From a virus: a stretch of DNA of 41,747 nt. The notes under the pieces were generated by a model. It saw only the letters and a program-made list of their open reading frames with translations, was not told the origin of the DNA and searched no databases. This document shows positions 3,765 through 40,832 of the stretch, piece after piece (position 1 is the first letter of the stretch; each line of letters opens with the position of its first letter). Both the position numbers and the translations under genes were made by a program. Location of the stretch: positions 1 to 41,747 of IMG/VR virus record IMGVR_UViG_3300015360_000084; one strand, given 5' to 3'.

Positions 3765-4883
3765 TTATATTTTTGATTTAAAGAACTCCCTGAATTTGTT
3801 GAACAACAACGGTTTGATAGATTTCCACACGCTGTCTAGCATGTCTTCACTGTCGAATATCGTGTCGAGCACATAATACGCCGCGTCTTCTGTTTCTGCC
3901 GTTGTGTAATCCGGGAACATCGCCTCTATGTCGGCTTTGATCTCATCGTTATTGTATCTGTCGAAAAGACGGTTGACTTCTTTTTCTATATCCTCTGGCG
4001 TCATCTCGTGGTCGTAATTAGAATCAGGGGTTTCATTAATAACTGAGACCTCATTTATGTTCTTGAACCAGTCCAGCTTTGTAATCATGTTGGTCTCATT
4101 TATCCCGTACTTGTTTCTTATCGATTCGAACCTGTTCTCTGTCATATTGTATTCCGATGGCACCTGAGAATTGGGGTCTATGACGGTCTTGCATATGTGG
4201 TCTGAACACACGACGTGTCCGGCACCGCAGACGCTACAGTTTCCAATCTCGATTCCGTCGTTGTTAACCTCGACGTCCGTGAACGTGTCAGCCGCAGGCT
4301 TCTGTAATTTAATTATCTCACCGGCCTGTACCGGCACGATTTCGCCAGATTCGTTTTTGGCGATGTGGTATTTGGCGTTAGACGCGTTAATCTTTCCGGA
4401 ATTGTATAAGTCACGGTCAATGTTGACGATGTGTTTCTTGCCCTTAGTCTGTGCTTCAAGTTTCTCTGCGGTCTCCAAGTCTTTGTACAGACCGACGGCC
4501 TTGCCGTTTGCGTCTTCCACATAGAACAGCTGTATGAGAGTTGGTACATTGAAAGTAGTTGACTCGTTATTGGCAACTTCAATATCGTATTTCTTCTTCA
4601 TAAGTTCGGGCTCCTTCGCAGCGCGGTTGGACCAGTAACCCCCGCCCTCGGCGTCAGCCCATAACACGAGGTATTCTTCCTGTGTCGTAGAGTGGAACCC
4701 GGAACCGTTCTTGAATATGTCGAACTCAGTTATGTCTTGTTCCTTAGCATGGCGCAGCGCCGCGTCTTTGCTGTTGAAACCCTCGGCTGAACGCATGTTG
4801 TTCTTCGAGTGGTACAGCTGTATCGGGAAGTCCTTGAACGACTTCTCGTTTACTTGTCCCAGGTAGTGATTGAAATTCTTCAT
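3765..4883 (-). CDS. 372-aa leader-bearing protein with a second, internal leader
   Basis: Starts MKNFNHYLGQVNEKS, a T4-internal-protein-like leader with a VNE site at 11-13. The middle carries a Cys cluster (NCSVCGAGHVVCSDHIC, about residues 217-233), a possible small zinc site. At Met266 (position 4088) the sequence MITKLDWFKNINEVSVINE restarts the common leader inside the ORF and contains two I-N-E sites; an acidic helical region of about 85 residues follows. This could be a fusion of two leader-bearing genes or a polyprotein cut by the prohead protease. An internal start at 4088 is also possible. No enzyme domain recognised. Confidence 0.65.
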   Translation of the reverse strand: MKNFNHYLGQVNEKSFKDFPIQLYHSKNNMRSAEGFNSKDAALRHAKEQDITEFDIFKNGSGFHSTTQEEYLVLWADAEGGGYWSNRAAKEPELMKKKYDIEVANNESTTFNVPTLIQLFYVEDANGKAVGLYKDLETAEKLEAQTKGKKHIVNIDRDLYNSGKINASNAKYHIAKNESGEIVPVQAGEIIKLQKPAADTFTDVEVNNDGIEIGNCSVCGAGHVVCSDHICKTVIDPNSQVPSEYNMTENRFESIRNKYGINETNMITKLDWFKNINEVSVINETPDSNYDHEMTPEDIEKEVNRLFDRYNNDEIKADIEAMFPDYTTAETEDAAYYVLDTIFDSEDMLDSVWKSIKPLLFNKFREFFKSKI

Positions 4884-4902
4884 ATGTTGTCTGTATTTTT
4901 AT

Positions 4903-5181
4903 TTATTTTTTGAAATGTTCCCTAATCTTCCTGTTCTCACTGTACTCGCGCATCGGGTTTATCACCCAGGCAAAGACTATGAATACCAACGTGTAGAATG
5001 ATAGGATTACTGCGCACACGACGAACAGCACGTAGAACACGGTACCGGTGCAGTCATTTGTGGCGACATCAGAGATGTAGCTGAACAACGGCAGAAGCAA
5101 CAACAGTGCTACGACGCGACCGATGTGCGTAAACACTATGTATTTGAGGGCGTTTCCCATCTTCTTTGAAATGTCTCCCAT
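4903..5181 (-). CDS. small inner-membrane protein, two TM segments
   Basis: A 92-residue protein. Two long hydrophobic stretches are visible, about residues 19-36 (VFTHIGRVVALLLLLPLF) and 47-75 (VFYVLFVVCAVILSFYTLVF onward), followed by a charged tail. It probably sits in the host inner membrane, as lysis or superinfection-exclusion proteins do, but the role is unknown. A TTTTAATATATAA-type element lies 20 bases upstream of its start. Confidence 0.7.
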   Translation of the reverse strand: MGDISKKMGNALKYIVFTHIGRVVALLLLLPLFSYISDVATNDCTGTVFYVLFVVCAVILSFYTLVFIVFAWVINPMREYSENRKIREHFKK

Positions 5182-5201
5182 GATTCGGAGTGTGTTTAGA
5201 C

Positions 5202-5215
5202 TTATATATTAAAAT
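5202..5215 (-). promoter_or_regulatory. candidate phage promoter (ATTTTAATATATAA)
   Basis: Read on the minus strand, ATTTTAATATATAA lies 20 bases upstream of the ATG at 5181. The same string recurs before other genes (6404, 8393, 37398, 40386) and resembles a T4-late-type TATA element. The promoter role is inference. Confidence 0.45.
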
Positions 5216-5239
5216 ATCCGTATTAAATGTAGTAAAATG

Positions 5240-5270
5240 AGAAAACCTTGGAAATATTCCAAGGTTTTCT
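5240..5270 (-). terminator. strong hairpin, probable terminator
   Basis: A perfect 14-bp stem (AGAAAACCTTGGAA) with a 3-base loop lies upstream of the candidate promoter at 5202. On the minus strand the stem is followed by CATTTTAC rather than a long T tract, so it is a weak intrinsic terminator or an RNA-processing hairpin separating the 5352 gene from the next unit. Confidence 0.5.
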
Positions 5271-5351
5271 GCCAAATCTAATATCTGCTCTTTATCTCCA
5301 TTCATTTGCGATTGCTTCGCTGATCGTAATCAACTTTACTTTTAATTTACT

Positions 5352-5616
5352 TCATTTTGTTTTATTTTTATAGAATACCCCCAATGGCGCACGCAGACTA
5401 GAATCATATCTCATACATACGGATGCTTGACTCGTCGAGTATGTGCCGCGCAGTGTGTGTTCGGTCTTGCCGACTTTTTCAACTACTGTACGAAAGAAAG
5501 ATATTGCATCGTCACGCTCTTCGGGCGTCGATTGCTCTGGCACTTTTATACGAACGTCGGCCTTGGTTATAGTTAGCTTAAAAGTCTTTTTTATTCTTGA
5601 CTTCTATGGTTTCCAT
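5352..5616 (-). CDS. small hypothetical protein, probable frameshift in an A6 run
   Basis: ATG 5616 opens METIEVKNKKDF and stops at once. The shifted frame continues from the same A run (six A on the minus strand, 5587-5592) as KKTFKLTITKADVRIKVPEQ and runs to 5352. Removing one A joins the two into about 87 residues. A GTG at 5543 could start a shorter 63-residue product. A/T-rich promoter-like DNA (ATTTTAATTTATAC) lies upstream of 5616, which favours the long form. The function is unknown; a homopolymer sequencing error is a plausible cause. Confidence 0.5.
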
Positions 5617-5670
5617 GATGCAATAGTATAAATTAAAATACGAAAACAAAAATAGATCGTGAATTTAATG

Positions 5671-5742
5671 TTGTCCCAGCCGGGTTCGAACCAGCATTAC
5701 AAGAGTCAAAATCTTGTGTCCTTCCAATTAGACGACAGGACA
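5671..5742 (-). tRNA. tRNA-Gln (anticodon TTG)
   Basis: Minus strand: acceptor TGTCCTG pairs with TGGGACA (two G-U), anticodon stem CAAGA/TCTTG with loop TTTTGAC (anticodon TTG), T-arm GCTGG-TTCGAAC-CCGGC, discriminator A. CCA is not encoded. Confidence 0.9.
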
Positions 5743-5759
5743 TTATGCGATTTCGTTTG

Positions 5760-5831
5760 TTGTCCCTTCAGGGTTCGAACCTGAAACTCCGCAGCCAAAA
5801 TGCGGCGTGATGCCAATTTCACTAAAGGACA
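5760..5831 (-). tRNA. tRNA-Pro (anticodon TGG)
   Basis: Minus strand: acceptor TGTCCTT with AGGGACA, anticodon stem CCGCA/TGCGG with loop TTTTGGC (anticodon TGG), T-arm TCAGG-TTCGAAC-CCTGA, discriminator A. It lies 17 bases from tRNA-Gln and shares its acceptor start, suggesting a common precursor. Confidence 0.9.
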
Positions 5832-5841
5832 GTATAAAATA

Positions 5842-5869
5842 AAAAGCCGCACAATATTGCGCGGCTTTT
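5842..5869 (-). terminator. hairpin terminator
   Basis: AAAAGCCGC / GCGGCTTTT stem around a self-complementary CAATATTG. It lies between the 5890 mini-ORF and the Pro/Gln tRNAs. On the minus strand the stem ends in a T run, consistent with intrinsic termination. Confidence 0.6.
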
Positions 5870-5889
5870 AACGTATCGTCATGAGTCCA

Positions 5890-5976
5890 TCAGGATTTAA
5901 ACAATGCGAGGCCGCAACAATGTGATTGCTGTTGTTGGTTCTGCTGGTTGTTTGTCGTGTTGGTATTCATCATCAT
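5890..5976 (-). CDS. possible 28-aa Gln/Asn-rich peptide
   Basis: Three consecutive ATG codons (5976-5968), then NTNTTNNQQNQQQQ and SHCCGLALFKS, stop TGA at 5890. It lies 7 bases after the stop of the 5984 gene and directly before a terminator, so it is transcribed with that gene. Coding status is uncertain; nothing is recognised. Confidence 0.3.
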   Translation of the reverse strand: MMMNTNTTNNQQNQQQQSHCCGLALFKS

Positions 5977-5983
5977 TTCTAAA

Positions 5984-6385
5984 TTATTTGTTGTTCGCGA
6001 AGTTCTTGTAATCCCTGCTAAGGAATGACTTCGTGTTGGTACTGAGATTGCGACCGTGCGCGTCTAATTCGTTCATCGTCGGTAAAGCCACCACTGTCGG
6101 CGCGACAGACATGTAATATCTGGCAGTCCATTCGGCAGTAGGTATTACATTAGTGTTGAACTGTCCTACCGTATATTCAGCCCGTGTGAAAACGATCGCC
6201 TCGCCGTCCATGTTGAACCCGATCAGTATGAAGAACTGTCTGTAGTCGAATCCGCCGGCAAATGCGCCAGGTAATGGCGGAACCGATGTAGCCTCGGGAT
6301 AGAACGTCTTGCCCGTCAGTATCGCGTATAATTGTGCTGCGTCTGCTCTGTTGGCCGGCACTATTTTGAAATATTTCTTATCCAT
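5984..6385 (-). CDS. hypothetical protein
   Basis: A 133-residue protein (starts MDKKYFKIVPANRADAAQLY). It contains a Pro/Gly-rich stretch near residues 35-47 and looks like a small compact alpha/beta protein. No family recognised. A promoter-like TTTTAATATATAAAG lies 18 bases upstream, so it heads its own unit. Confidence 0.65.
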   Translation of the reverse strand: MDKKYFKIVPANRADAAQLYAILTGKTFYPEATSVPPLPGAFAGGFDYRQFFILIGFNMDGEAIVFTRAEYTVGQFNTNVIPTAEWTARYYMSVAPTVVALPTMNELDAHGRNLSTNTKSFLSRDYKNFANNK

Positions 6386-6403
6386 CGTAATAAAAGTCTT
6401 TTC

Positions 6404-6418
6404 TTTATATATTAAAAT
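6404..6418 (-). promoter_or_regulatory. candidate phage promoter
   Basis: Minus strand ATTTTAATATATAAA, 18 bases upstream of ATG 6385. Same motif and similar spacing as at 5202 and 8393. Confidence 0.45.
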
Positions 6419-6475
6419 CTAAAACCAAATGGCACCAGCGGCTATTATTGTGGGCCAGGCTTTTGAACTTACTTG

Positions 6476-6548
6476 TGGAGAATCCGAGCTTTGCTCTCGG
6501 CTCTATAGATTGCAAATCTATGATTTTTGCTGAATAAACTAATCCCCC
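6476..6548 (-). tRNA. degenerate tRNA-Ala-like RNA (anticodon TGC)
   Basis: A 73-nt minus-strand cloverleaf: acceptor GGGGGAT with ATTCTCC, including the G3-U70 pair that marks alanine tRNAs; anticodon stem ATAGA/TCTAT with loop TTTGCAA (TGC); perfect T-stem CCGAG/CTCGG. The T-loop is AGCAAAG instead of TTCGAAN, the D-stem is weak (GTTT/AAAT) and the D-loop lacks the GG pair, so normal D/T-loop contacts are absent. It could be a decaying gene, an odd functional tRNA or a mimic. The other tRNAs in this cluster are canonical. Confidence 0.5.
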
Positions 6549-6639
6549 CTAATATTATAAAATGCATGAAATTGTTTTGACGCAATTGTTGCCGCGGTTG
6601 GTGAACTCTGTTGTGAGTTCCCTTCCGACTCTGCATGTG

Positions 6640-6710
6640 AGCGACATATCGGGATCGAACCGCATCCCCTGGTTGGAAGCCAGGCGCTTTACCGTTAAGC
6701 TATATGTCGC
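6640..6710 (-). tRNA. tRNA-Gly (anticodon TCC)
   Basis: Minus strand: perfect 7-bp acceptor GCGACAT/ATGTCGC, anticodon stem CCTGG/CCAGG with loop CTTCCAA (anticodon TCC), TTCGATC T-loop, discriminator T as usual for glycine. Only three T-stem pairs are good. CCA is not encoded. Confidence 0.85.
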
Positions 6711-6724
6711 ATTGGCCCTTGTGC

Positions 6725-6740
6725 GTTGTGAGCTCACAAC
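6725..6740. repeat. 16-bp perfect palindrome
   Basis: GTTGTGAGCTCACAAC lies between tRNA-Gly and tRNA-Val. Part of it (TTGTGAG) recurs at about 6610-6618. It could be an operator or a processing hairpin; no evidence decides. Confidence 0.5.
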
Positions 6741-6787
6741 CATCGTATGGGGGGACTAAGTACTAACGGTTCATTACGCCGTGCGAG

Positions 6788-6860
6788 TAGGCATGGAGGG
6801 AATCGAACCCCCGGTAGGTGCGATGTAAACGCACTGCTTTAGCCACTAAGCTACAGACCT
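6788..6860 (-). tRNA. tRNA-Val (anticodon TAC)
   Basis: Minus strand: acceptor AGGTCTG with CATGCCT (one C-T mismatch), anticodon stem GTGCG/CGCAC with loop TTTACAT (anticodon TAC), T-arm GGGGG-TTCGATT-CCCTC, discriminator A. Confidence 0.87.
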
Positions 6861-6865
6861 GTTTG

Positions 6866-6938
6866 TGTTCCCGACCGGACTCGAACCGATGACATTTTGG
6901 ATGTCGACCAAACGCTCTACCAACTGAGCTACGGGAAC
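6866..6938 (-). tRNA. tRNA-Val (anticodon GAC), unusual C33
   Basis: Minus strand: perfect acceptor GTTCCCG/CGGGAAC, D-arm GCTC/GAGC, anticodon stem TTTGG/CCAAA, loop TCGACAT giving anticodon GAC, T-arm ATCGG-TTCGAGT-CCGGT, discriminator A. Position 33 is C instead of the nearly universal U. Confidence 0.82.
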
Positions 6939-6946
6939 GTATAAAA

Positions 6947-6980
6947 GACGAAACCCGAACTTTTCAGCTCGGGTTTCGTC
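6947..6980 (-). terminator. hairpin before the tRNA cluster
   Basis: A 12-bp perfect stem GACGAAACCCGA/TCGGGTTTCGTC with a 10-base loop. On the minus strand it is followed by TTTTAT, so it may terminate transcription after the 7005 mini-ORF, or mark processing of the tRNA precursor. Confidence 0.5.
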
Positions 6981-7004
6981 GTTAATATCTTTACAGTTTT
7001 AACA

Positions 7005-7079
7005 TTACAAATCCGAGCCGGGATTTTTCCCCGCTTGTGCCTGACCGCCGACCACTTGTATGTTAGTTAATGTTTTCAT
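7005..7079 (-). CDS. possible 24-aa peptide
   Basis: ATG 7079 to TAA 7005, reading MKTLTNIQVVGGQAQAGKNP and four further residues. It is preceded by an A/T-rich stretch (CATATATAACAGTATAAC) and followed by a strong hairpin, so a short transcript is plausible. Nothing is recognised; coding is unproven. Confidence 0.3.
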   Translation of the reverse strand: MKTLTNIQVVGGQAQAGKNPGSDL

Positions 7080-7183
7080 TGTTAGTTATACTGTTATATA
7101 TGTAATTTGTTTAACCCGTTTTAATATTATACTGCAAATATACGCATTAATTTCACAACGCGGAAATATTTTTCCAATTATTT

Positions 7184-7456
7184 TCAAGTGCGCGCCGCGA
7201 TGTATTGCTGCCACTCGGTTTTCTGGGTCAGATTTGTATAGAGCCAGGGGTTGTCGTTCAGCCAGTTCTTGACGGTGCTTGCGACGCCGTCTGATAATTC
7301 CGACCACTCCTTGTTCGCGAACTCGTGATTAACCGAGCCTGATTCGGAGCCAAGGAACTTCTTGCGTTCTTCGGGCTTGTAGAACTGCCAGACGGCTTGC
7401 GCTACGTCTGTGTTCTGCTCGTTAATCTTCCTGAACTCGTTTATGGTAGTTATCAT
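7184..7456 (-). CDS. leader-bearing small protein
   Basis: A 90-residue protein if started at ATG 7456, giving the archetypal leader MITTINEFRKINE followed by QNTDVAQAVWQFYK. Another ATG 15 bases upstream would only add MNKKI. The body is helical and Trp-rich (WSELSDG, LNDNPWLY). No domain recognised. If the leader is a capsid-targeting sequence, processing after I-N-E leaves about 77 residues. Confidence 0.65.
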   Translation of the reverse strand: MITTINEFRKINEQNTDVAQAVWQFYKPEERKKFLGSESGSVNHEFANKEWSELSDGVASTVKNWLNDNPWLYTNLTQKTEWQQYIAART

Positions 7457-14425: not shown

Positions 14426-14827
14426 ATGTTAAAAGTCAAAACAAAATTAGACAAAAGCAGAATTGCAGGGATTGGCATTTTTGCTGACCAATTTATACCG
14501 AAGGATTCAATACTCTGGGAATACACTCCCAGTCACGACAAGGAATATACACAGGAAGAATTCGATAAGGCCGAAGGCTTAGATAGAGAGTTTCTTCAGA
14601 CTTATTGTTTTCGTTTTACTGATAAATTCTTCTTGTGTGTTGATAACTCGCGTTTCTTCAACCACTCGGATACGCCGAATTGCTACTCGTCAGATTTCAA
14701 CGAGAACAGTTTGGGTTACACCAAGGCCTTGCGCGATATTAATATCGGCGAAGAGCTGACGGACGATTATCTGGGTTTCGGGTTTAACGAAGCCGACAAG
14801 AAATGGAATACACAAATTAAAAAATAA
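14426..14827 (+). CDS. SET-domain protein lysine methyltransferase
   Basis: A 133-residue protein made almost entirely of a SET domain, like viral vSET. Visible motifs are GIGIFADQFIPKDSILWEY (AdoMet-binding start, residues 15-33), RFFNHSDTPNC (76-86, the conserved NHSxxPNC cofactor/catalytic motif), TKALRDINIGEEL, and the catalytic-Tyr region EELTDDYL (109-116). SET proteins transfer methyl groups from AdoMet to lysine side chains. The target, phage or host, is unknown; a ribosomal or DNA-binding protein is a guess. Its stop is followed immediately by the next ATG. Confidence 0.85.
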   Translation: MLKVKTKLDKSRIAGIGIFADQFIPKDSILWEYTPSHDKEYTQEEFDKAEGLDREFLQTYCFRFTDKFFLCVDNSRFFNHSDTPNCYSSDFNENSLGYTKALRDINIGEELTDDYLGFGFNEADKKWNTQIKK

Positions 14828-28020: not shown

Positions 28021-28047
28021 TGTGATGATTTTATTAAAATCATCACA
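28021..28047. repeat. 27-base near-perfect palindrome at convergent gene ends
   Basis: TGTGATGATTTTA, one T, then TAAAATCATCACA. It lies directly after the terminator and includes the stop codon region of the minus-strand gene ending at 28043. It lacks a T tract, so it may be a second hairpin or a protein-binding site. Confidence 0.7.
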
Positions 28048-31000
28048 TGTTTATATTTTTAAAGAAACCTGGTATCACCGAGAAAACTTTTCTGTTCAAC
28101 AACACCGCGCTGTATCCAGAATGCCACGACACTTCTATTATGAAATGCGGGTCAATCATACGGTCTACGGTGAATGACGTGCCAGTGTCGTCATAACGAT
28201 AGTCTGCGATGATTTGATTGGCTGCCAACGAATCTATGTTAATCTTTGTCCATGATGACGTTATGCCGGGTTCGTCACCGGGTAGCACTGCGCTGGTGCA
28301 TTTCCATGTCACGCCGTTGTGGTATACATTGTCGTTAACCACATAGTTTATGGAGTCGTTCCACTCTTCGAGATAGAACGTCCTTATGCGGTATCCGAAC
28401 CACTCGATGTCGCCAGCACTGAAGAACTGAACTCCGAGGTTATACGTGTTAGAGCCTACCGGTATAGGAGACAGATAACCAGTGACACCAAAGTCTACAG
28501 GCGTTGCGTATTCCTGAACTTTGAAACTCTTCACGCTGTACGTATCGTGTTTCAATACAAACTCTTGTGGCATCTGATACTTACCAGTTATGTCTATAAT
28601 CTTCGTACCAATCGGAATGATGTTCTCAATCAACCACTTCTTTAACCCGAGTAATTTTATGCGCACCTCGTCAAGAGAATATGCGCTTATAAAATTACCA
28701 TCAGTGTCAGTTATCTTGTAATTCAGCGAGAACAGATTCGTCTTCCTGAAACCCTCGTTGCGAAGGTTTTCGAATGCGAGATTAGAATATTCCCAACCCT
28801 GAACGCTCTTATCGAATATGTTCAATAATTCCATATTGAAGAGCTGTCCGAATTTGGTACTCTCGGGATTTATGTTCTGGAAGTACTCTGTGAACGATAA
28901 ATCGTTATAACCGAAGAAATTTATGGCCTGTATAACAGACTTGTAACTCGCGATGTTATTGAACAATTCCGGGTATATCTCCAACAGCTCCTTGCGCTTG
29001 CGATTCAATATTATCCAGTCTATGCCTTGCTCTTTTATGTCTACCTCTTTGAATATGTAGAAATCCTGTAATTTCAATATGTTTAGATTCTTATTGTTCA
29101 GGCTTATTGCGTGTCTCTCGTCTTCTTCCTCAGATTCTCCATATACGTCGACATATGTGACAACCTTAGGCAGTACGACAAGCGAAACGTTGAGCGTCCT
29201 TTTTTCCATCACCGGATTTCCAGTTATGTCATAATATGGTGGCGATGTTTTCGGCACTTCTTTTATCGATGTCTCTTCTAATATGTCGAGTACGAAAGTT
29301 ATCTTGTGTGGCGCAACAGATGCAATCTTGTGTTTCTTGCCGGTATTGTTGAGCACTCCGAGCTGTCTGCCATCCACGTTTACGTCATTAGAGAGAACCT
29401 GTACGACCTGGCCTTTCTTGAAACCGATAACGTTGAAATCGAAAGCATTAGTAACAGATTGTACCTCTATGTAGTTGTCTTTAAACACCCACAGGTCGTC
29501 TATCAGGTTTACCGATGTAGTCAAATCGAATTTGACATCTACTATTAATTCTAAATATATTCTAGCCTTGTTCCAGCTCTCGAAATCTGCCCTGTACCCC
29601 ATGAATAACTGTAACGGAGCAGGCTCTAATCCTGCTGTTTCGTTATTGTCTATGTACGGTATAATGTATTCTATCTTACTGAATACCGTCTGTTGTGCCC
29701 TGGGCTCTGTGACCAATTGCAACTTGTCGTTCGGTTTATCCAATAATTTCAGTTCTATCTCTCCTTCAGTGCCACACAATGGGGTAATTCCTGAGTACGG
29801 CGGAAAGTTTTCGTATATAGGCTTCAACTGCGTGCCTGTGAAATCGTAGAAGAAGAAGTCTGGAGTCTGTGTGTCTTTCCAAGACCATATCAATTTCGCG
29901 TTGTTCGCATACTCCGACAATCCGTATTTCGGAAATCTTATGAAATAATCTGAAATGATGTTCAACGAAAATGTGGGTAGACCCTGATCCCAGAATGCGC
30001 CCTGGTATGACAGCGATATAGTGTCAGATTCTAACGCGATTATGTTGTATGATTTATTCTGCGTCAGCTTCAGTGCGCCGTGTATCGAAATCTTCTGTCC
30101 TGTGGAATAGCTGTCAAAGAAGTTGTATGTGCCAGGATTTGTCTTTATTTCATTTCCCGCCAATACACTGCCGTTTGCGGCTGTCGCATACAGTGTGTCG
30201 TATACAGACAAATCTCCGGACTTCGGTATGTATCCTATATTGTATGTTATGAGCGCAGTCTTCTCTGGGTCCAGTGTGTCAAAAAATACAGTGCTCAGAT
30301 TAGACGACACCAATATTCCGAGCGTCGACAGAGTGCCCTTGTGTGCTGTTACCCAGTTGGTGACTGTTGTTGTGTCGTTCGTGTTGAACGGTATGTAATA
30401 ATTCTGCTCGTTTATAGTTATTATGAGTTGAGACTTTATGTTATTAAACTGTATAGCACGGTATTTGACTAAATATTGTGAGAAATCGCCCATCTTAAGT
30501 TGCGTGAACACTGGTATGTTGGGATACTCGCATTTTATGTTTAGTGTGTCGCCAGCATTGACTGTTGTGTTCTGTGTGACGATGATGCCAATCTGCGCCA
30601 GGCCGACAGCAAACTGCGATATGAAATCTCCTACCGTGTTAGACACTGTCAGTATCGGAAAGCCTACAACGTAGTCCCGGTCGACATTGTAATCGACTCC
30701 ATTGATTGTGACATTGAGACCAAAATCGTCGATGACGGTGAACACCATGTCTCTGTTGTATATTGTACTGTCTTTGTTTATTATCTCTTCAACCAACAGC
30801 GGCTCTTCGAGCCACAGCGGGTATATGTTGTATGTCGGCGTACTGTATGCTATCGGTGTGGACACGTTAGTGATGCCCACTTTATTTACAGCAACTGTCG
30901 AGTATGCATCTGAGAAATTAGAAGTTATTAATAACTCGTCGCTGTCTGTCAGATATTGTATTGTGCTGCCGCCAGGTAAGGAATTTAATATGTCCGCCCA

Positions 31001-32119
31001 CTTGTTTACCAATACCCAGTATGTCAACGGTAGCGAATACACGTTATTGTTATCCAACACGATGTCCTGCTCCATGCGTAATACGTTAGTCGCCAAATCT
31101 ATAGTACAGTCTACATTTTGCGCGTTCAGTGTCGTCGCTACAGTTATGATGTTAGTGTTCTTGTTTATGCCGGTAACTACCAGCGTTACCGCGTTCGATA
31201 TTGACAACGGCGTAATCTTCTGGAATGCCTGTATCGAATCTCCCATCTTCAGGAACGACGGTATATGCGTCACCTGAATCTCGTTAGGGTTTGAAATGCC
31301 GAATGAAGTTAGCCCGTTATGTACGGGTATGTTACTCACTCGTAATGTCATGTCTATCACCAGCTTGTCTCCTGCCACTGGTATGAATGCGTTGGGCGCG
31401 AGCTTGACTGCATGTCTGACCCTTTTCAATACCGGCTCTTTGTGCGTGTATATTCCAGAATTATCAGAGTTTGCGACAAATGACAATTTCTTGCCAGCGT
31501 ATACTTTAGTGTCTAAGTTTGTCTCGTTCCATGTTGGTTCGGCCGGAATGCCGCTGAGTGCTTGCTGCACTTCCATGATATTCATCGGAATTATCTTCAT
31601 CGACGGCAAAGCCGCGAATGCTGACAGTGGCGTGTTGTTTGGCGTGTTCGTGAATACCAGGGCTCTGCCCGGTTCTACTGCTAAAACTTTGCGTCCCTGT
31701 ATGTATGTCGTGCTGTACTCGTCGAAATCGGTATTGTGGTATCCGTCAAGACCCTTAAAATAAACCCACATTCCCGGGTAAAAAGTTTTCTCGATGCCGT
31801 CGGCATACACCCACTTCGTGTTATATGCCGCAGAGTTGGTAGTCGTCTTTATGCCGAGTACCGGCAATTCCGTGGCGTCGAATTTAGGGAATGCTAAAAA
31901 ATTATTAGTATTGAACACCTGGAACTTCTCTAGGCGTGCCTGGAACGTCAAGTTCGTGCCCTGGACTTTCTCGAATGCGTATACCCCTTGCGTCTTGAAC
32001 GTTTCTGTAGAGTTTTTATCGAAAAACATCTTCCCGCTCCACAAATCCAATGTCTCGTCGTAGTTGAAATTCATGTGGTTTCCCTCTTTATTGAAAAACA
32101 GTAAATCCTTAATATCCAT
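28043..32119 (-). CDS. giant tail/baseplate-like protein with chitin-binding-like module
   Basis: A 1358-residue protein, the largest in the window, rich in Asn, Thr, Val, Ile and Tyr and mostly beta. Near the C-terminus EEWNDSINYVVNDNVYHNGV then TWKCTSAVLPGDEPG matches a CBM5/12-type carbohydrate-binding module (aromatic-rich, GD-P signature). A helical segment before it (KELLEIYPELFNNIASYKSV, then INFFGYNDLSFTEY) resembles baseplate assembly regions of long phage tail proteins. I infer a baseplate/tail-tip component that contacts host glycans. No lysozyme motif seen. The minus-strand leader contains TTAATATATAG. Confidence 0.6.
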   Translation of the reverse strand: MDIKDLLFFNKEGNHMNFNYDETLDLWSGKMFFDKNSTETFKTQGVYAFEKVQGTNLTFQARLEKFQVFNTNNFLAFPKFDATELPVLGIKTTTNSAAYNTKWVYADGIEKTFYPGMWVYFKGLDGYHNTDFDEYSTTYIQGRKVLAVEPGRALVFTNTPNNTPLSAFAALPSMKIIPMNIMEVQQALSGIPAEPTWNETNLDTKVYAGKKLSFVANSDNSGIYTHKEPVLKRVRHAVKLAPNAFIPVAGDKLVIDMTLRVSNIPVHNGLTSFGISNPNEIQVTHIPSFLKMGDSIQAFQKITPLSISNAVTLVVTGINKNTNIITVATTLNAQNVDCTIDLATNVLRMEQDIVLDNNNVYSLPLTYWVLVNKWADILNSLPGGSTIQYLTDSDELLITSNFSDAYSTVAVNKVGITNVSTPIAYSTPTYNIYPLWLEEPLLVEEIINKDSTIYNRDMVFTVIDDFGLNVTINGVDYNVDRDYVVGFPILTVSNTVGDFISQFAVGLAQIGIIVTQNTTVNAGDTLNIKCEYPNIPVFTQLKMGDFSQYLVKYRAIQFNNIKSQLIITINEQNYYIPFNTNDTTTVTNWVTAHKGTLSTLGILVSSNLSTVFFDTLDPEKTALITYNIGYIPKSGDLSVYDTLYATAANGSVLAGNEIKTNPGTYNFFDSYSTGQKISIHGALKLTQNKSYNIIALESDTISLSYQGAFWDQGLPTFSLNIISDYFIRFPKYGLSEYANNAKLIWSWKDTQTPDFFFYDFTGTQLKPIYENFPPYSGITPLCGTEGEIELKLLDKPNDKLQLVTEPRAQQTVFSKIEYIIPYIDNNETAGLEPAPLQLFMGYRADFESWNKARIYLELIVDVKFDLTTSVNLIDDLWVFKDNYIEVQSVTNAFDFNVIGFKKGQVVQVLSNDVNVDGRQLGVLNNTGKKHKIASVAPHKITFVLDILEETSIKEVPKTSPPYYDITGNPVMEKRTLNVSLVVLPKVVTYVDVYGESEEEDERHAISLNNKNLNILKLQDFYIFKEVDIKEQGIDWIILNRKRKELLEIYPELFNNIASYKSVIQAINFFGYNDLSFTEYFQNINPESTKFGQLFNMELLNIFDKSVQGWEYSNLAFENLRNEGFRKTNLFSLNYKITDTDGNFISAYSLDEVRIKLLGLKKWLIENIIPIGTKIIDITGKYQMPQEFVLKHDTYSVKSFKVQEYATPVDFGVTGYLSPIPVGSNTYNLGVQFFSAGDIEWFGYRIRTFYLEEWNDSINYVVNDNVYHNGVTWKCTSAVLPGDEPGITSSWTKINIDSLAANQIIADYRYDDTGTSFTVDRMIDPHFIIEVSWHSGYSAVLLNRKVFSVIPGFFKNINM

Positions 32120-32195
32120 AAACTATATATTAATCATATTAAACTTTCCTAACAGATTGGTGTAAAATAAGTACATAACATTATAGATATTGATA

Positions 32196-33650
32196 ATGAC
32201 AGGTAAATGTGTAAATAATAAATCCGAAATCCAGCTATTGTATTGCGATAAACAACTTAAAAATACTAATAGTTTTTTGTCTTGGCACAATTTATTAAAA
32301 TCTGGGTTATCGCTAGAAACGGCAAATAACTATCTAAATACGAGGTATCTGCAAAAAATTAGATTAGAATTATCGTGCTTCGAAAGCACCGATACTGAAC
32401 AGTTATATAATCACTTAATCTGTGATAATTTTACAGAACATAGAGCCGCTGAATTATCGGCATATTTTAACACTAACAAAATCGAAGGTTATTTAGAATT
32501 TATAAAAATATGGTATGCAATAAAATCTATCAGAAACGTAAAATTAGAATACTGGTTAGAACGCGGGCATAATCCTGAAGATGCCAAGAAAAAAATGCTC
32601 ACATTTTTCCAAGCATGGGCGAATGAAATATCTAGAAAACGTGAGAACTTACAATATAACAAAAAATTCATAGAATCACGAAAAATTGGTGGTGCAGCGG
32701 CGGCAAAATCATTTAAAAATATAAACAAGTCGAAAGTAGAAATTGACATAACAAACGAATTAATAAACGAAAATCATGCAGTAAATACAAATTTTTATTC
32801 GCCCGTTGTAAATATAGAATTACGACAAATACATACAAAATATAATTACCTACATGATATTTTATTAGACAATAAGGTGATTATAGAATATAACGGTATA
32901 TACTGGCATAAAGATTTTACACACTTTAAACAATTTACCGAAAAAGAATATTTTAACGAAATTATAAAAGCGTATAATTGCTTACATGACGTAAAAAACA
33001 GAGAATCGTATAAATATGTGGTTATATGGGAAAACGACATACCCGATGTTAAAGGCATTGTCAATTTCATTAAAGATTGTGTCAAATCTAAGAGTACACA
33101 ACAATTTTTCAGCACCAGACCATACGACATAGCAAAATTTAAACAATACAAAATTGAACAAATTGAATTAAATAAACAAATTATTAAATATAAAAAAAAA
33201 CTTATAAAATTTCAAGAAAATAAATGCGGTGCAACAGAATGTACAAAAAAAAGAGTATATGCAATTGCTGTTAAACATGATAAAATTATTGCAGTAGGTA
33301 ATAATAGAACAATCACACAAAGTTTAAATTGCTACGAACATTTTTTTGCTGTATATAAAACAAAAAAAATAGATATGTCTTTTGACGAATGGAAAAAAAC
33401 AGACGAATACAGCGTTGCACATCGTAAGTGGGCGGAATTATTTGAAATCCACGCTGAGATGTCCATACTAATAAAAACGAATATTGAAAGTTGTGACCTG
33501 TATGTATCACTCAAGCCGTGTAATAACTGTATTAAACATTTGGCAGGGTCGGGAGTAAAAAGAATATATTATATTACTGATCACAATAAGACATCGCCTG
33601 ATTCTATAAAACTTTTGAATAAGTGTGGAATAACATTAAAACAAATATAA
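32196..33650 (+). CDS. Vsr-like homing endonuclease fused to dCMP deaminase
   Basis: A 484-residue product from ATG 32196 (a TTG 6 bases upstream is possible). Residues about 1-170 are helical DNA-binding-like sequence. Residues about 195-300 form a Vsr/EDxHD-type nuclease domain: YNYLHDILLDNKVIIEYNGI then YWHKDF, and YKYVVIWENDIPD. From about residue 350 a complete deaminase follows: KKRVYAIAVKHDKIIAVGNN, HAEMS (His419/Glu421), and the zinc motif PCNNC (Cys442/Cys445). All zinc ligands are present. The DNA is visibly more A/T-rich than its surroundings, a sign of transfer. The truncated resident deaminase lies directly after it. Confidence 0.75.
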   Translation: MTGKCVNNKSEIQLLYCDKQLKNTNSFLSWHNLLKSGLSLETANNYLNTRYLQKIRLELSCFESTDTEQLYNHLICDNFTEHRAAELSAYFNTNKIEGYLEFIKIWYAIKSIRNVKLEYWLERGHNPEDAKKKMLTFFQAWANEISRKRENLQYNKKFIESRKIGGAAAAKSFKNINKSKVEIDITNELINENHAVNTNFYSPVVNIELRQIHTKYNYLHDILLDNKVIIEYNGIYWHKDFTHFKQFTEKEYFNEIIKAYNCLHDVKNRESYKYVVIWENDIPDVKGIVNFIKDCVKSKSTQQFFSTRPYDIAKFKQYKIEQIELNKQIIKYKKKLIKFQENKCGATECTKKRVYAIAVKHDKIIAVGNNRTITQSLNCYEHFFAVYKTKKIDMSFDEWKKTDEYSVAHRKWAELFEIHAEMSILIKTNIESCDLYVSLKPCNNCIKHLAGSGVKRIYYITDHNKTSPDSIKLLNKCGITLKQI

Positions 33651-33817
33651 TCAAAAGCCTAGAACCATGCTTCAACTGCCTTAAACACGCAGTGACCGCA
33701 GGAGTCCGTGAGATATATTTTGCAAAGAAACACAAGTACAACCTGGAGACGAAAGACGCTATCGAATTAATCACGACACTCGGAATAAAAATAAAACACA
33801 TATATATACAAAAATGA
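33651..33817 (+). pseudogene. 3' remnant of the resident dCMP deaminase
   Basis: In the frame ending with TGA 33815-33817 the DNA encodes KSLEPCFNCLKHAVTAG and then VREIYFAKKHKYN, the C-terminal third of a dCMP deaminase including its own PCxxC zinc motif. The 5' two-thirds are missing. The fragment starts within a few bases of the fusion gene's stop and is more G/C-rich than it. An ATG at 33623 could start a short product. Its stop overlaps the ATPase start (ATGA), the original operon junction. Confidence 0.75.
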
Positions 33818-34356
33818 AGACACTATTTGTAAATCTCTTCGGAGGACCGTGCGCAGGCAAATCTACAATCGCGTTAGAGCTGACCGGCGAACTGAAGTGG
33901 AATCGCGTCAGGTGTGAGATAATAACCGAATACGCCAAGCAGTTGGTCTGGGAAGAGTCGTTTCCGAAAATGAAGAACCAGCTGTACATACTCGGAAAAC
34001 AACACGGAAAACAGTTCACGCTGAACGGCAAGGTAGACGTGGCAGTCACAGACTCGCCTTTCATACTATCGCTGGTTTACGACGAGGGCCGGACACAGTT
34101 TCTTACCGAGATGGCGATGGCTGAGTTCAACCAGCTCAGGAACATGAACGTGTTCATAGAGCGTTCCGCGGAATATGACCCTACAGGCAGGATGCAGAAG
34201 ACCATCGTGGAAGCGATGGTTAAAGACAAAGAGATTAAACAATTTCTTTCCGACAATAAAGTGGATTACATGACGGTGCCTTTCGACAGACATGCCACAC
34301 CACATCTGCTAAAACTAATAAAAATAGAAATGCAAAAAAATGGAGATAATAACTAA
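33814..34356 (+). CDS. P-loop ATPase/kinase (AAA_28, NadR-like)
   Basis: A 180-residue protein. Walker A is LFGGPCAGKSTIAL (residues 8-21), followed by EIITEYAKQLVWEES, typical of the NadR/AAA_28 family, and a Walker B-like VAVTDSPFIL. Members are common in T4-like phages and may phosphorylate nucleosides or pyridine nucleotides; substrate unknown. It overlaps the deaminase remnant (ATGA) and the exonuclease gene (17 bases), placing it in a nucleotide/DNA metabolism operon. Confidence 0.75.
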   Translation: MKTLFVNLFGGPCAGKSTIALELTGELKWNRVRCEIITEYAKQLVWEESFPKMKNQLYILGKQHGKQFTLNGKVDVAVTDSPFILSLVYDEGRTQFLTEMAMAEFNQLRNMNVFIERSAEYDPTGRMQKTIVEAMVKDKEIKQFLSDNKVDYMTVPFDRHATPHLLKLIKIEMQKNGDNN

Positions 34357-35963: not shown

Positions 35964-37124
35964 TTAAACTGTAGCTTTATTTATTACCGTGAGTATCTGT
36001 CCTACGTTAGACCAGTCTATGTACTTGTGCTCTATCGCCTCTCCCACGGACATCACGTGTATCTCTGTTCTCTCGGAATCCGCCTCGTTGCCAAACACTT
36101 TGTTCTGGTTCGATTTCAGCACGTCGAGCTCATACTTGTCCAATTTGTATGAGTACAGGTGACTTTTATGTGTCAACAGCGTAGAATACACCTGTCGTTC
36201 GCTGACGTATTCGAGTCTGTCAATCTTCGGGATGAAACCTGTCTCCTCCTCTAGTTCGTCTATTATTATTTCCTTCGGGTCAAGCCCGGGCTTCACGCTA
36301 GAACCGCCAGGAACCTCATAGACCTTACCCATGTCATTATTCACAGGACTTCTAAACTCTGAAACCAACACGATTTCACAATCCATCGGGTTCGGTCTCC
36401 AGTAGTACAACACACAAGACGATATGTCAGGTCTAGAGAATATGAACTCGTTGTTCTTGTACCTGTTCTCTGACTTGATGAATACGTTCACCCACATGCT
36501 GAATGCGAACGGCATTCCCTTAGGAGTGCGGTATACGTGCAGTATTTTCGCGTCGCTTATCCAGTTGCCGTTCAGTCTCAGTTGTTTGTACCAGTTCTGG
36601 AACTGTGCAAGCTTCCAAATCTCTTGCGTTATGAATCTCTCGCCGTCCCGGCGTGAGCAGTCTGTCTGTGTGTTGATCACGTATTTGAGGCCGTTGAACA
36701 AATCGTGATAGACTTCCATCTTAAGGTCTTTAGCCCACCACTCCTGGTAGCGGACCTTGTCTGCGTCTAGTTCTGTTATAAGTATGCACTTGCCAGAGGC
36801 TTTCCAGAAACCCCACTCGTCATTTGTCGTGAGCCCCAGTAAGCCATTATCTATATCCCTGTTTATGAAGAACACGATGTTGTCTGCCATGTGCAGGCAT
36901 TTAGATTCCCACATGATCTGGCGTTCGTAGTCGAAATCCTCAAAATTCCCAACTTCGGCTTCTGGCACAAATACGACTCCGTCATATTCTAACAGCTCTA
37001 AAATTTTTAGAGCCGCAATTCTCCACGATGTTCCGTCCTGTCCGGGTCTTAAACTCGGTCCTGCCAAAAAAATTGATTTACTAATCTCATTGGGTATTGC
37101 CTGTAGCGCGTATATTATCTTCAT
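35964..37124 (-). CDS. nucleoside deoxyribosyltransferase-like + Nudix fusion
   Basis: 386 residues from ATG 37124 (an upstream start at 37169 overlaps the previous gene and lacks family match). The N-terminal domain (about 13-130): SIFLAGPSLRPG, SWRIAALKILE, GVVFVPEAE, then MADNIVFFINRDI and LGLTTNDEWGFW, matching the 2-deoxyribosyltransferase-like family PF15891 (name from memory). The C-terminal domain (about 220-386) is Nudix: YEVPGGSSVKPGLDPKEIII then DELEEETGF, with the EExxEExGF core kept but Asp where the usual Arg precedes. The pair may remodel or clean up modified nucleotides or NAD-like molecules; inference. Confidence 0.7.
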   Translation of the reverse strand: MKIIYALQAIPNEISKSIFLAGPSLRPGQDGTSWRIAALKILELLEYDGVVFVPEAEVGNFEDFDYERQIMWESKCLHMADNIVFFINRDIDNGLLGLTTNDEWGFWKASGKCILITELDADKVRYQEWWAKDLKMEVYHDLFNGLKYVINTQTDCSRRDGERFITQEIWKLAQFQNWYKQLRLNGNWISDAKILHVYRTPKGMPFAFSMWVNVFIKSENRYKNNEFIFSRPDISSCVLYYWRPNPMDCEIVLVSEFRSPVNNDMGKVYEVPGGSSVKPGLDPKEIIIDELEEETGFIPKIDRLEYVSERQVYSTLLTHKSHLYSYKLDKYELDVLKSNQNKVFGNEADSERTEIHVMSVGEAIEHKYIDWSNVGQILTVINKATV

Positions 37125-37135
37125 ATCTTTAATTG

Positions 37136-37393
37136 TTATCTTATGTGATTTTTCTGCATATCTCTCCAATGCTTGTAGAACCCTTTATAGGCGATTATAA
37201 TCATCATTAGCGTTGGGATACAAATTGCTACACAAAATGCTACAGTGGCCTCGTATTGAGTCAATACGTATATAAAACCAACTAATGCCAATAAAAATAA
37301 CACGATATAGTTATTTTTGTTCATTAACTTAAACCAATCTTTAAATGTCTTAAATTCTTGTTTTGTATGTTTGCTTAAATCTACATCTTTCAT
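37136..37393 (-). CDS. small membrane protein, two TM segments
   Basis: An 85-residue protein. Hydrophobic segments at about 28-46 (NYIVLFLLALVGFIYVL) and 50-70 (VAFCVAICIPTLMMIIIAY), with charged ends. It probably sits in the inner membrane. Role unknown. A TTTTTTAATATATAAC element lies 5 bases before its ATG. Confidence 0.65.
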   Translation of the reverse strand: MKDVDLSKHTKQEFKTFKDWFKLMNKNNYIVLFLLALVGFIYVLTQYEATVAFCVAICIPTLMMIIIAYKGFYKHWRDMQKNHIR

Positions 37394-37892: not shown

Positions 37893-38990
37893 ATGAACAA
37901 TTTAGATGAACAATACCGCGCGATAATTGCCGACATATTGGAGAACGGCACCGTATCTGGTGACCGCACCGGGACCGGGACTAAGAAAGTTTTCGGCAGA
38001 ATGATAACACACGACATGAAGGAAGGCTTCCCATTGTTGACGACAAAGAAGATGTTCTGGAAAGGAATACTCGTGGAGCTACTGTGGTTCCTGCGTGGCG
38101 ACACCAACATCAAATATCTCGTCGATAACGGCGTAAACATTTGGGTAGGAGACTGCTACAAGCGTTACAAGACCATCGAAACACTTCACGATGTGGTATC
38201 ACTCAACAGTAAAATTCTTGACGCGACAACTCTTGAATACAGGATCTTGACCGAAAAAGAATTCATCCAGGCGATCAAAGACGATAAACATCTGGGGCCG
38301 ATTGGTCTTACTTTCTCGCAAGCGTACGCTGAACTCGGTACTGTATACGGCAAGGAATGGGTCGACTGGTACGGCATAAACCAAGTGCAGGAAGTACTCG
38401 ACTCATTGAAGAACAACCCGGACAATCGTCGAATGATGGTCACAGCATGGAACCCGGTAAATGTCAAGAAAGCCGTGTTGCCACCGTGTCACTACGCATG
38501 GCAAGTCTTCACACGCGAGCTTACGTTTTCCGAGAGATTAAATCTCATAAAAACTGAGGATGAACAAAAAACAAAAATGATTGTTTCTTATTGTGAGTTT
38601 CCTGGCGACACATGGCTGGAGGGACAAGTAGAAAATATACTTACAGAATACGATATTCCGGTGCGAGAGATTTCTATAATGTTCCAGATGCGTTCTGTCG
38701 ACATGCCACTTGGTTTTCCGTTCGATATTGCGTCATATGCGTTCCTGTTGAGCATGATAGCACAAGTCGTCAACATGGTACCTGGTAAGGTTTCATGTAG
38801 TTTGGGCGACACACACATATACGTCAACCAGATCGACGCAATAAAAGAGCAAATATCACGCGAACCCTATTTACTACCGATGCTCGAACTCAATAAGGAT
38901 ATAAAAAATCTATTCGATTTCAGAGTCTCTGACGTGAAAATCAACGATTACCGATGTCACGATAAGATATACATACCGTTAAGCAACTAA
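37893..38990 (+). CDS. thyA: thymidylate synthase (ThyA family)
   Basis: A 365-residue protein, about 100 longer than typical ThyA. Family motifs: GDRTGTGTKKVFG, FPLLTTKKMFWKGILVELLW, the YGKEWVDW region, the dUMP-binding RRMMVTAWNP, the catalytic Cys199 in LPPCHY, then FQMRSVDMPLGFPFDIASYA and GDTHIYVNQ. Two extra segments occur, about 88-135 and a loop after QVFTRELTF (about 211-258). The enzyme turns dUMP into dTMP with methylene-tetrahydrofolate, feeding phage DNA synthesis. The deaminase and kinase-like genes supply the same pathway. A terminator follows. Confidence 0.95.
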   Translation: MNNLDEQYRAIIADILENGTVSGDRTGTGTKKVFGRMITHDMKEGFPLLTTKKMFWKGILVELLWFLRGDTNIKYLVDNGVNIWVGDCYKRYKTIETLHDVVSLNSKILDATTLEYRILTEKEFIQAIKDDKHLGPIGLTFSQAYAELGTVYGKEWVDWYGINQVQEVLDSLKNNPDNRRMMVTAWNPVNVKKAVLPPCHYAWQVFTRELTFSERLNLIKTEDEQKTKMIVSYCEFPGDTWLEGQVENILTEYDIPVREISIMFQMRSVDMPLGFPFDIASYAFLLSMIAQVVNMVPGKVSCSLGDTHIYVNQIDAIKEQISREPYLLPMLELNKDIKNLFDFRVSDVKINDYRCHDKIYIPLSN

Positions 38991-40445: not shown

Positions 40446-40832
40446 ATGGCTAAGAAATCAAAGAAAAAAACTGAAGAACACGTTGAAAATACAGCAATTA
40501 CACCTGAAAATACAACTGAAAATACAACAAAAAATAATTCAGTCGCACCAGAAGTCGCACCAGAAGTCGCACCAGAAGTCACACCAGAAGTCACACCAGA
40601 AGTCACACCAGAAGTCACACCAGAAGTTACAACAGAAGTCACACCAGAAGTTGCCAGTAAGACTGCAAAACAAATTTTTGAAGAAGCTATTGCTAAGATA
40701 CCGTATACTATTTATCAAAACAGTATCATGATTTGTCATTCTAATCCTTACTTGGTTATCAAGACTGAGGCAAAGTGTTTCGAAATCAATTTCAAGAAAT
40801 TCAGTTATGCTGGAATAGAGGTTAAACACTAA
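40446..40832 (+). CDS. repeat-containing hypothetical protein
   Basis: A 128-residue protein. The N-terminus is Lys-rich (MAKKSKKKTEEHVEN), then a run of 4-residue repeats V-(A/T)-P-E, about nine copies (residues 33-68), then a folded-looking C-terminal 55 residues (KTAKQIFEEAIAKIPYTIYQ, NPYLVIKTEAKCFEINF). The repeats come from a 12-base tandem array and should form an extended, rod-like or flexible linker. No family recognised. It precedes the partial gene at 40857 by 24 bases. Confidence 0.65.
   Translation: MAKKSKKKTEEHVENTAITPENTTENTTKNNSVAPEVAPEVAPEVTPEVTPEVTPEVTPEVTTEVTPEVASKTAKQIFEEAIAKIPYTIYQNSIMICHSNPYLVIKTEAKCFEINFKKFSYAGIEVKH
40542..40649. repeat. 12-bp tandem repeat array, 9 copies, coding
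   Basis: Unit GTCGCACCAGAA in the first three copies and GTCACACCAGAA in most others, with one more diverged copy (GTTACAACAGAA). In frame it encodes V-A-P-E / V-T-P-E. Such arrays change copy number by slippage without breaking the frame. Confidence 0.92.

Follow-up and report, generated by a model that had tools for sequence, protein, structure and literature searches.

A Vsr-like nuclease fused to a dCMP-deaminase-like domain next to the C-terminal remnant of a phage deaminase: a possible homing element with its own substitute

Genes at the locus and its uninvaded counterpart

The window, i.e., the whole stretch of phage DNA analyzed, is a metagenomic record of 41,747 nt (IMGVR_UViG_3300015360_000084). 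An ORF on its plus strand (32196–33650) encodes a protein of 484 aa, in which an N-terminal Vsr/EDxHD-type nuclease is joined in frame to a C-terminal dCMP-deaminase-like domain. To the left lies a divergent tail/baseplate-type structural gene of 1358 aa (28043–32119, minus strand), separated from the fusion by an AT-rich divergent intergenic region (32120–32195). To the right, a short frame is followed by a P-loop ATPase/thymidylate-kinase-like gene (33814–34356, plus strand; PF13521, PHROG 2107). The GC content of the fusion was 28.6% in the nuclease part and 29.7% in the deaminase part, compared with 38.2% in the short frame, 43.4% in the tail gene, 45.9% in the ATPase gene and 44.9% in the gene that follows. 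The fused part had been described as more A/T-rich in the original prediction, and the difference between ~29% and the 43–46% of the flanking genes bears this out. Elsewhere in the window, a SET-domain protein is encoded at 14426–14827 (PF00856, E 7.4e-16), and a short ORF at 40446–40832 contains a run of APEV/TPEV repeats. On the minus strand at 35964–37169, a nucleoside 2-deoxyribosyltransferase-like domain (PF15891, E 4.5e-8) is joined to an apparent Nudix box (GGSSVKPGLDPKEIIIDELEEETGF), which is an unusual pair.

The short frame directly after the fusion stop (33653–33817, plus strand; 54 aa) reads KSLEPCFNCLKHAVTAGVREIYFAKKHKYNLETKDAIELITTLGIKIKHIYIQK-stop and represents the C-terminal third of a resident deaminase, from its PCFNC motif to the native stop. 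Its TGA overlaps the ATG of the ATPase gene as ATGA (33814), and the ATPase gene therefore starts inside the end of the remnant. The deaminase third after the stop, with its PCxxC motif and ATGA joint, is thus present as predicted. If the window phage once had an intact deaminase before the ATPase gene, relatives may have kept it, and we found such a relative (L009, on a viral contig of 123 kb) exactly at this place. The gene order of the L009 locus is the same as that in the window: divergent tail gene (58% identity), intact deaminase of 154 aa, ATPase, PD-(D/E)XK gene (71%) and kinase, with a TTGA joint between deaminase and ATPase. The L009 site has one deaminase and no nuclease, and two deaminase genes without a nuclease were not seen. 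The remnant aligned without gaps to residues 104–154 of the L009 deaminase at 61% identity, starting at S/N-LEPC. The neighboring ATPase and kinase of the same two phages were only 44% and 43% identical, indicating that the remnant has not undergone excess decay. This stranded tail is probably untranslated. On the other side, the intergenic region aligned with the 65 nt that precede the intact L009 deaminase, best in its left half on the tail-gene side, and this region is probably the promoter now used by the element.

The L009 locus and its counterpart in the window are the uninserted and inserted alleles of one site. Judged by this comparison of sequences, the lineage of the window lost the first ~103 codons of its resident deaminase, and a foreign fusion gene took their place; the last ~51 codons remain as a tail. 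The same picture could come from an assembly chimera of two phages, as the contig is metagenomic and GC content changes sharply at both ends of the fusion. However, a chimera would need two false joins that return to the same phage at adjacent places, one of them keeping both the ATGA joint and the resident reading frame, and a full-length fusion is independently present in another phage (L003); a chimera is therefore highly improbable. In a more distant relative (L002), the tail gene (49% identity, same divergent place), the ATPase gene and the PD-(D/E)XK gene are kept, and there is no deaminase between the tail gene and the ATPase gene (4890–5010). That phage has a deaminase ~15 kb from the locus (L057). 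Among wider relatives of the ATPase, the order of tail gene, deaminase and ATPase is not kept.

The two halves of the fusion protein

The nuclease core (32730–33095, plus strand) carries a signature at residues ~180–300, comprising D221, E231-Y-N-G-x-Y-W-H238 and W278-E279-N-D, which is also seen in EDxHD/Vsr-like homing nucleases of phages. When aligned with 18 nuclease relatives, D221, E231 and H238 fell in columns that were invariant or more than 90% conserved, and these catalytic D, E and H residues stand intact in the Vsr-type arrangement. Ten of the 18 relatives matched PHROGs 3339 (homing endonuclease) and 559; PHROG 559 proteins are described as Vsr-type intron-encoded nucleases of Bacillus phage terminase genes (PMC11878797). 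The EDxHD enzymes form a well-established group of homing nucleases, whose target sites are long (PMC3943268). The separate fold model of the nuclease was of moderate confidence (pLDDT 70). Its three best structural matches were I-Bth0305I (Z 7.3 over 93 residues), Vsr 1cw0 (Z 7.3) and 1vsr (Z 6.9), all below 8, and Foldseek's own ranking gave no significant match of the model to a nuclease fold. Upstream of the core, a helical motif, LEYWLERGHNPEDAKKKMLTFFQ (32547–32615, plus strand), is presumed to be a DNA-binding module; it is common to intein-borne and free homing nucleases, with tandem copies in L096 and L146. By its residues and relatives, the predicted nuclease is a member of a homing-endonuclease family.

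One relative of the nuclease domain lies within an intein of TerL (L004), where the terminase large subunit gene (4157–7291) is split by an intein carrying a Vsr-like homing nuclease. Another relative, in the phage that has the uninvaded site, is a nuclease-like ORF (L146, 729–2304) that contains several copies of YWL-KGFSEEDAK and follows an ATPase N-terminus ending in GANGNGKC; it apparently sits in an intein at the ATPase Walker A motif. For the fusion itself, we rejected an intron or intein reading: a search for an intron around it gave no Rfam match at the locus, and the N-terminal coding part of the resident gene, which would be the exon, is absent.

The carried domain (33231–33647, plus strand; residues 346–484) matched PF00383 (E 3.6e-10, residues 346–460) and the PHROG 174 dCMP deaminase (E 5.5e-26). 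The zinc ligands and the catalytic glutamate are kept (H419-A-E421 and P441-C442-N-N-C445). In the model of the whole protein, this domain reached a pLDDT of about 90 and was structurally closest to the T4 dCMP deaminase (1vq2; Z 16.4 over 145 residues), followed by the human, S. mutans and S-TIM5 dCMP deaminases. We considered whether the fusion could be a natural base editor, i.e., a DNA-targeted deaminase, and rejected this, as the nearest relatives in fold and sequence are dCMP deaminases acting on free nucleotides. However, at the NG motif the fused domain reads NRTITQ, whereas each of the other 30 deaminases in the alignment, including that of L003, has NG. The P and G positions are also lost, and these changes are unique among the 31 aligned deaminases. 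TadA-type deaminases carry N-R at the position of the NG motif. These changes imply that deaminase activity cannot be assumed; we therefore name the domain dCMP-deaminase-like, and dCMP deaminase activity of the predicted domain is doubtful. The fusion of a Vsr-like nuclease to a complete deaminase, as originally proposed, holds for the joining of the two and for the zinc ligands, all of which are present, but not for the NG motif.

These changes raise the possibility that an ordinary homing nuclease acquired the deaminase by read-in and that the domain is an outgoing passenger, in which case dCMP deaminase was lost and the invasion was costly. The altered NG motif and the lost P and G positions fit this explanation, as does the terminal branch of the fused domain, which at 1.9 exceeds all others in the deaminase tree (0.89 for L003). 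The combination of a long branch and a lost NG motif is the pattern expected of a decaying or re-purposed domain; in contrast, the branch of the nuclease domain is short. The related phage L002, living without a deaminase at the locus, also speaks for a passenger, but that phage retains a deaminase elsewhere. Relative-rate tests were mixed, with the faster rate of the fused domain significant against three of eight outgroups and absent with L009 and L057, and we did not retain faster decay of the fused deaminase as a finding. Against a passenger, the 139 codons of the domain contain no stops or frameshifts, the zinc ligands and catalytic glutamate are kept, the deaminase fold is predicted with confidence, and the L003 fusion has an intact NG motif. 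In addition, the window encodes a thymidylate synthase (37893–38990; PF00303, E 9e-86), which profits from a deaminase. We consider the passenger explanation unlikely. No second deaminase was found within the 41.7-kb record, which is a metagenomic fragment, so that another may lie beyond its ends. A working substitute would make sense in a phage with a thymidylate synthase and this gene content.

Over 33171–33470, third-position GC of the fusion rises from 4–20% to 44% at ~33396, within the deaminase domain. A mosaic domain is possible on the basis of this shift but was not adopted, as the identities show no clean breakpoint.

A second fusion and the origin of the insertion

A second nuclease-deaminase fusion of 472 aa (L003) was found in another phage, on a contig of 72 kb. 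Residues 13–484 of the window fusion are homologous to it, with 38–42% identity over nearly the full length and almost equal ends. Its neighborhood differs from that of the window, the next gene but one being dUTPase-like, and no deaminase remnant was found beside it. The fused domain formed a clade with L003 (95/90) in the deaminase tree, whereas in the C-terminal tree the remnant grouped with L009 (99/99). The occurrence of an independent fusion with nearly equal ends in another phage and another gene neighborhood indicates that the fusion forms one unit and also moves as one. Together with the trees and the GC content of ~29% against flanks of 43–46%, it also indicates that the fusion is foreign and moved as one gene. 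Among viral contigs, L003 was the sole other full-length fusion found, and no further fusion covering 80% of the query was present in 50,697 phage records or in genome contigs; the degenerate-pattern scans miss distant relatives, and the true count may be higher. Matches in T4 phages over residues 243–479 were rejected as fusions, as they consist of the cd gene and an unrelated neighbor. As only two fusions are known and the displaced gene is seen at one of them, the target is read from a single junction.

In the proposed course of events, the nuclease would have cut the resident gene close to its conserved S-L-E-P-C codons in a mixed infection, after which a donor with the fusion would have served to repair the broken phage. 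On the left side, the join may have been made in or near the promoter region, so that the divergent promoter region of the resident gene was taken over. On the right side, the join would have been non-homologous or by microhomology, just past the stop of the donor gene. The carried deaminase, with DNA too diverged for cutting, would then stand in for the broken one and keep up the dUMP supply for the phage thymidylate synthase. Over the PCxxC codons, only 29 of 60 bases of the carried copy match the resident tail, and that copy would probably escape the element's own nuclease.

Two facts limit this account, namely the carried domain with NRTITQ instead of NG and the need for a non-homologous right join. 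A cut at the SLxPCxxC codons followed by two-sided homologous repair would yield a seamless hybrid deaminase, whereas the actual junction consists of a complete foreign domain, then a stop, then the native tail; an extra, non-homologous step is therefore needed. A match of 20 of 23 nt between the 3' ends of the two deaminases was considered as a recombination footprint and rejected as not significant, because ~15% of synonymous-codon shuffles reach it. The invasion of a resident deaminase, as first proposed, is favored by the intact L009 gene, the resident lineage of the remnant and the foreign fused domain, but the right junction is no simple homologous crossover.

The non-homologous junction would also fit an origin in which illegitimate recombination independent of the nuclease had placed the fusion, with random ends and a junction that fell at conserved codons by coincidence; the fused deaminase would then have become the deaminase of the phage. 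The different neighborhood of the L003 fusion, without a remnant, agrees with such an event. However, chance insertion into a gene of the very family that the element carries is unlikely, and the nuclease is of a homing family with intact catalytic residues. We consider this explanation unlikely, if somewhat less so than the passenger. The best and most economical explanation is that a nuclease bearing a stand-in deaminase homed into the resident deaminase gene, and we rate it at roughly even chances; on the same footing, 32196–33650 may be a free-standing EDxHD (Vsr-like) homing-endonuclease gene with a foreign dCMP-deaminase domain fused to it. A stronger form, natural home-and-rescue, in which one polypeptide would cut resident deaminase genes with its N-terminal half and supply a recoded, uncuttable and working substitute with its C-terminal half, is tentative. 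If it is true, an element could occupy a gene of use to the phage with neither intron nor intein.

Comparison with known systems

Homing genes normally spare their target, as they are hidden in introns or inteins or sited beside the gene. If a phage homing nuclease came joined to a substitute for the very enzyme that it displaces, this would add another way around the problem and would help to explain the swapping of metabolic enzymes between unrelated phages. With both an invaded and an uninvaded locus in hand, the hypothesis is directly testable. In our searches of papers, no nuclease-deaminase fusion was found. The original prediction held that homing genes bringing a substitute for the gene they break are rarely described; for phages, this agrees with the literature searched, but a precedent is known from fungal mitochondria (PMC3630166).

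The carried domain resembles the T4 dCMP deaminase (gp cd, 1vq2) and PHROG 174 proteins in fold (Z 16.4), zinc ligands and domain length, and differs from them in having NR for NG and in its position behind a nuclease. Similarly, the nuclease resembles I-Bth0305I and the PHROG 559 and 3339 intron and intein nucleases in its core, where D, E and H are conserved, and shares the helical motif of the intein-borne members. Unlike these enzymes, the fusion lies outside an intron or intein and has a C-terminal metabolic enzyme domain. Free-standing phage homing genes such as those for SegF and MobE adjoin or interrupt genes of nucleotide metabolism (PMC2988022), and in Aeh1 a homing endonuclease splits the ribonucleotide reductase gene into pieces that reportedly still function together (Friedrich 2007, cited in PMC2988022). 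The window resembles these in having a promoter-less nuclease gene in or beside a phage nucleotide-metabolism gene; however, the SegF, MobE and Aeh1 elements bring no substitute for the broken gene. Phage homing genes can also carry neighboring genes as cargo in HEG islands (PMC10448857).

The closest likeness is to endonuclease ORFs of fungal mitochondria, which supply atp6, atp9, cox2 or nad3 with a foreign C-terminus, while the native one remains downstream as a stranded piece (PMC3630166). Such gene-hybrid elements occur in Allomyces atp6 and in Glomus atp6, atp9, cox2 and nad3, and their stranded pieces group with uninvaded relatives (PMC3630166). In the window, likewise, an endonuclease element lies in a gene, a foreign version has been brought and a displaced native C-terminal piece groups with its uninvaded relative (99/99). 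In the fungal elements, however, the resident N-terminus receives the foreign C-terminus and the nuclease is encoded in an ORF of its own, whereas the window has a whole catalytic domain attached behind the nuclease and no longer has the resident N-terminus. No deaminase N-terminus was found upstream of the fusion, which works like a fungal element but is not a member of that group. The nuclease families also differ, being LAGLIDADG or GIY-YIG in the fungi and EDxHD in the window, as do the hosts of the elements, mitochondrion and phage. Synthetic home-and-rescue and Cleave-and-Rescue drives (PMC7968924, PMC7951863) follow the same logic, in which a gene is cut and a recoded, uncuttable copy is supplied. 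Those drives are engineered and CRISPR-based, whereas the logic proposed for the window is read from anatomy alone; if it is correct, the fusion would be a natural counterpart of engineered home-and-rescue drives.
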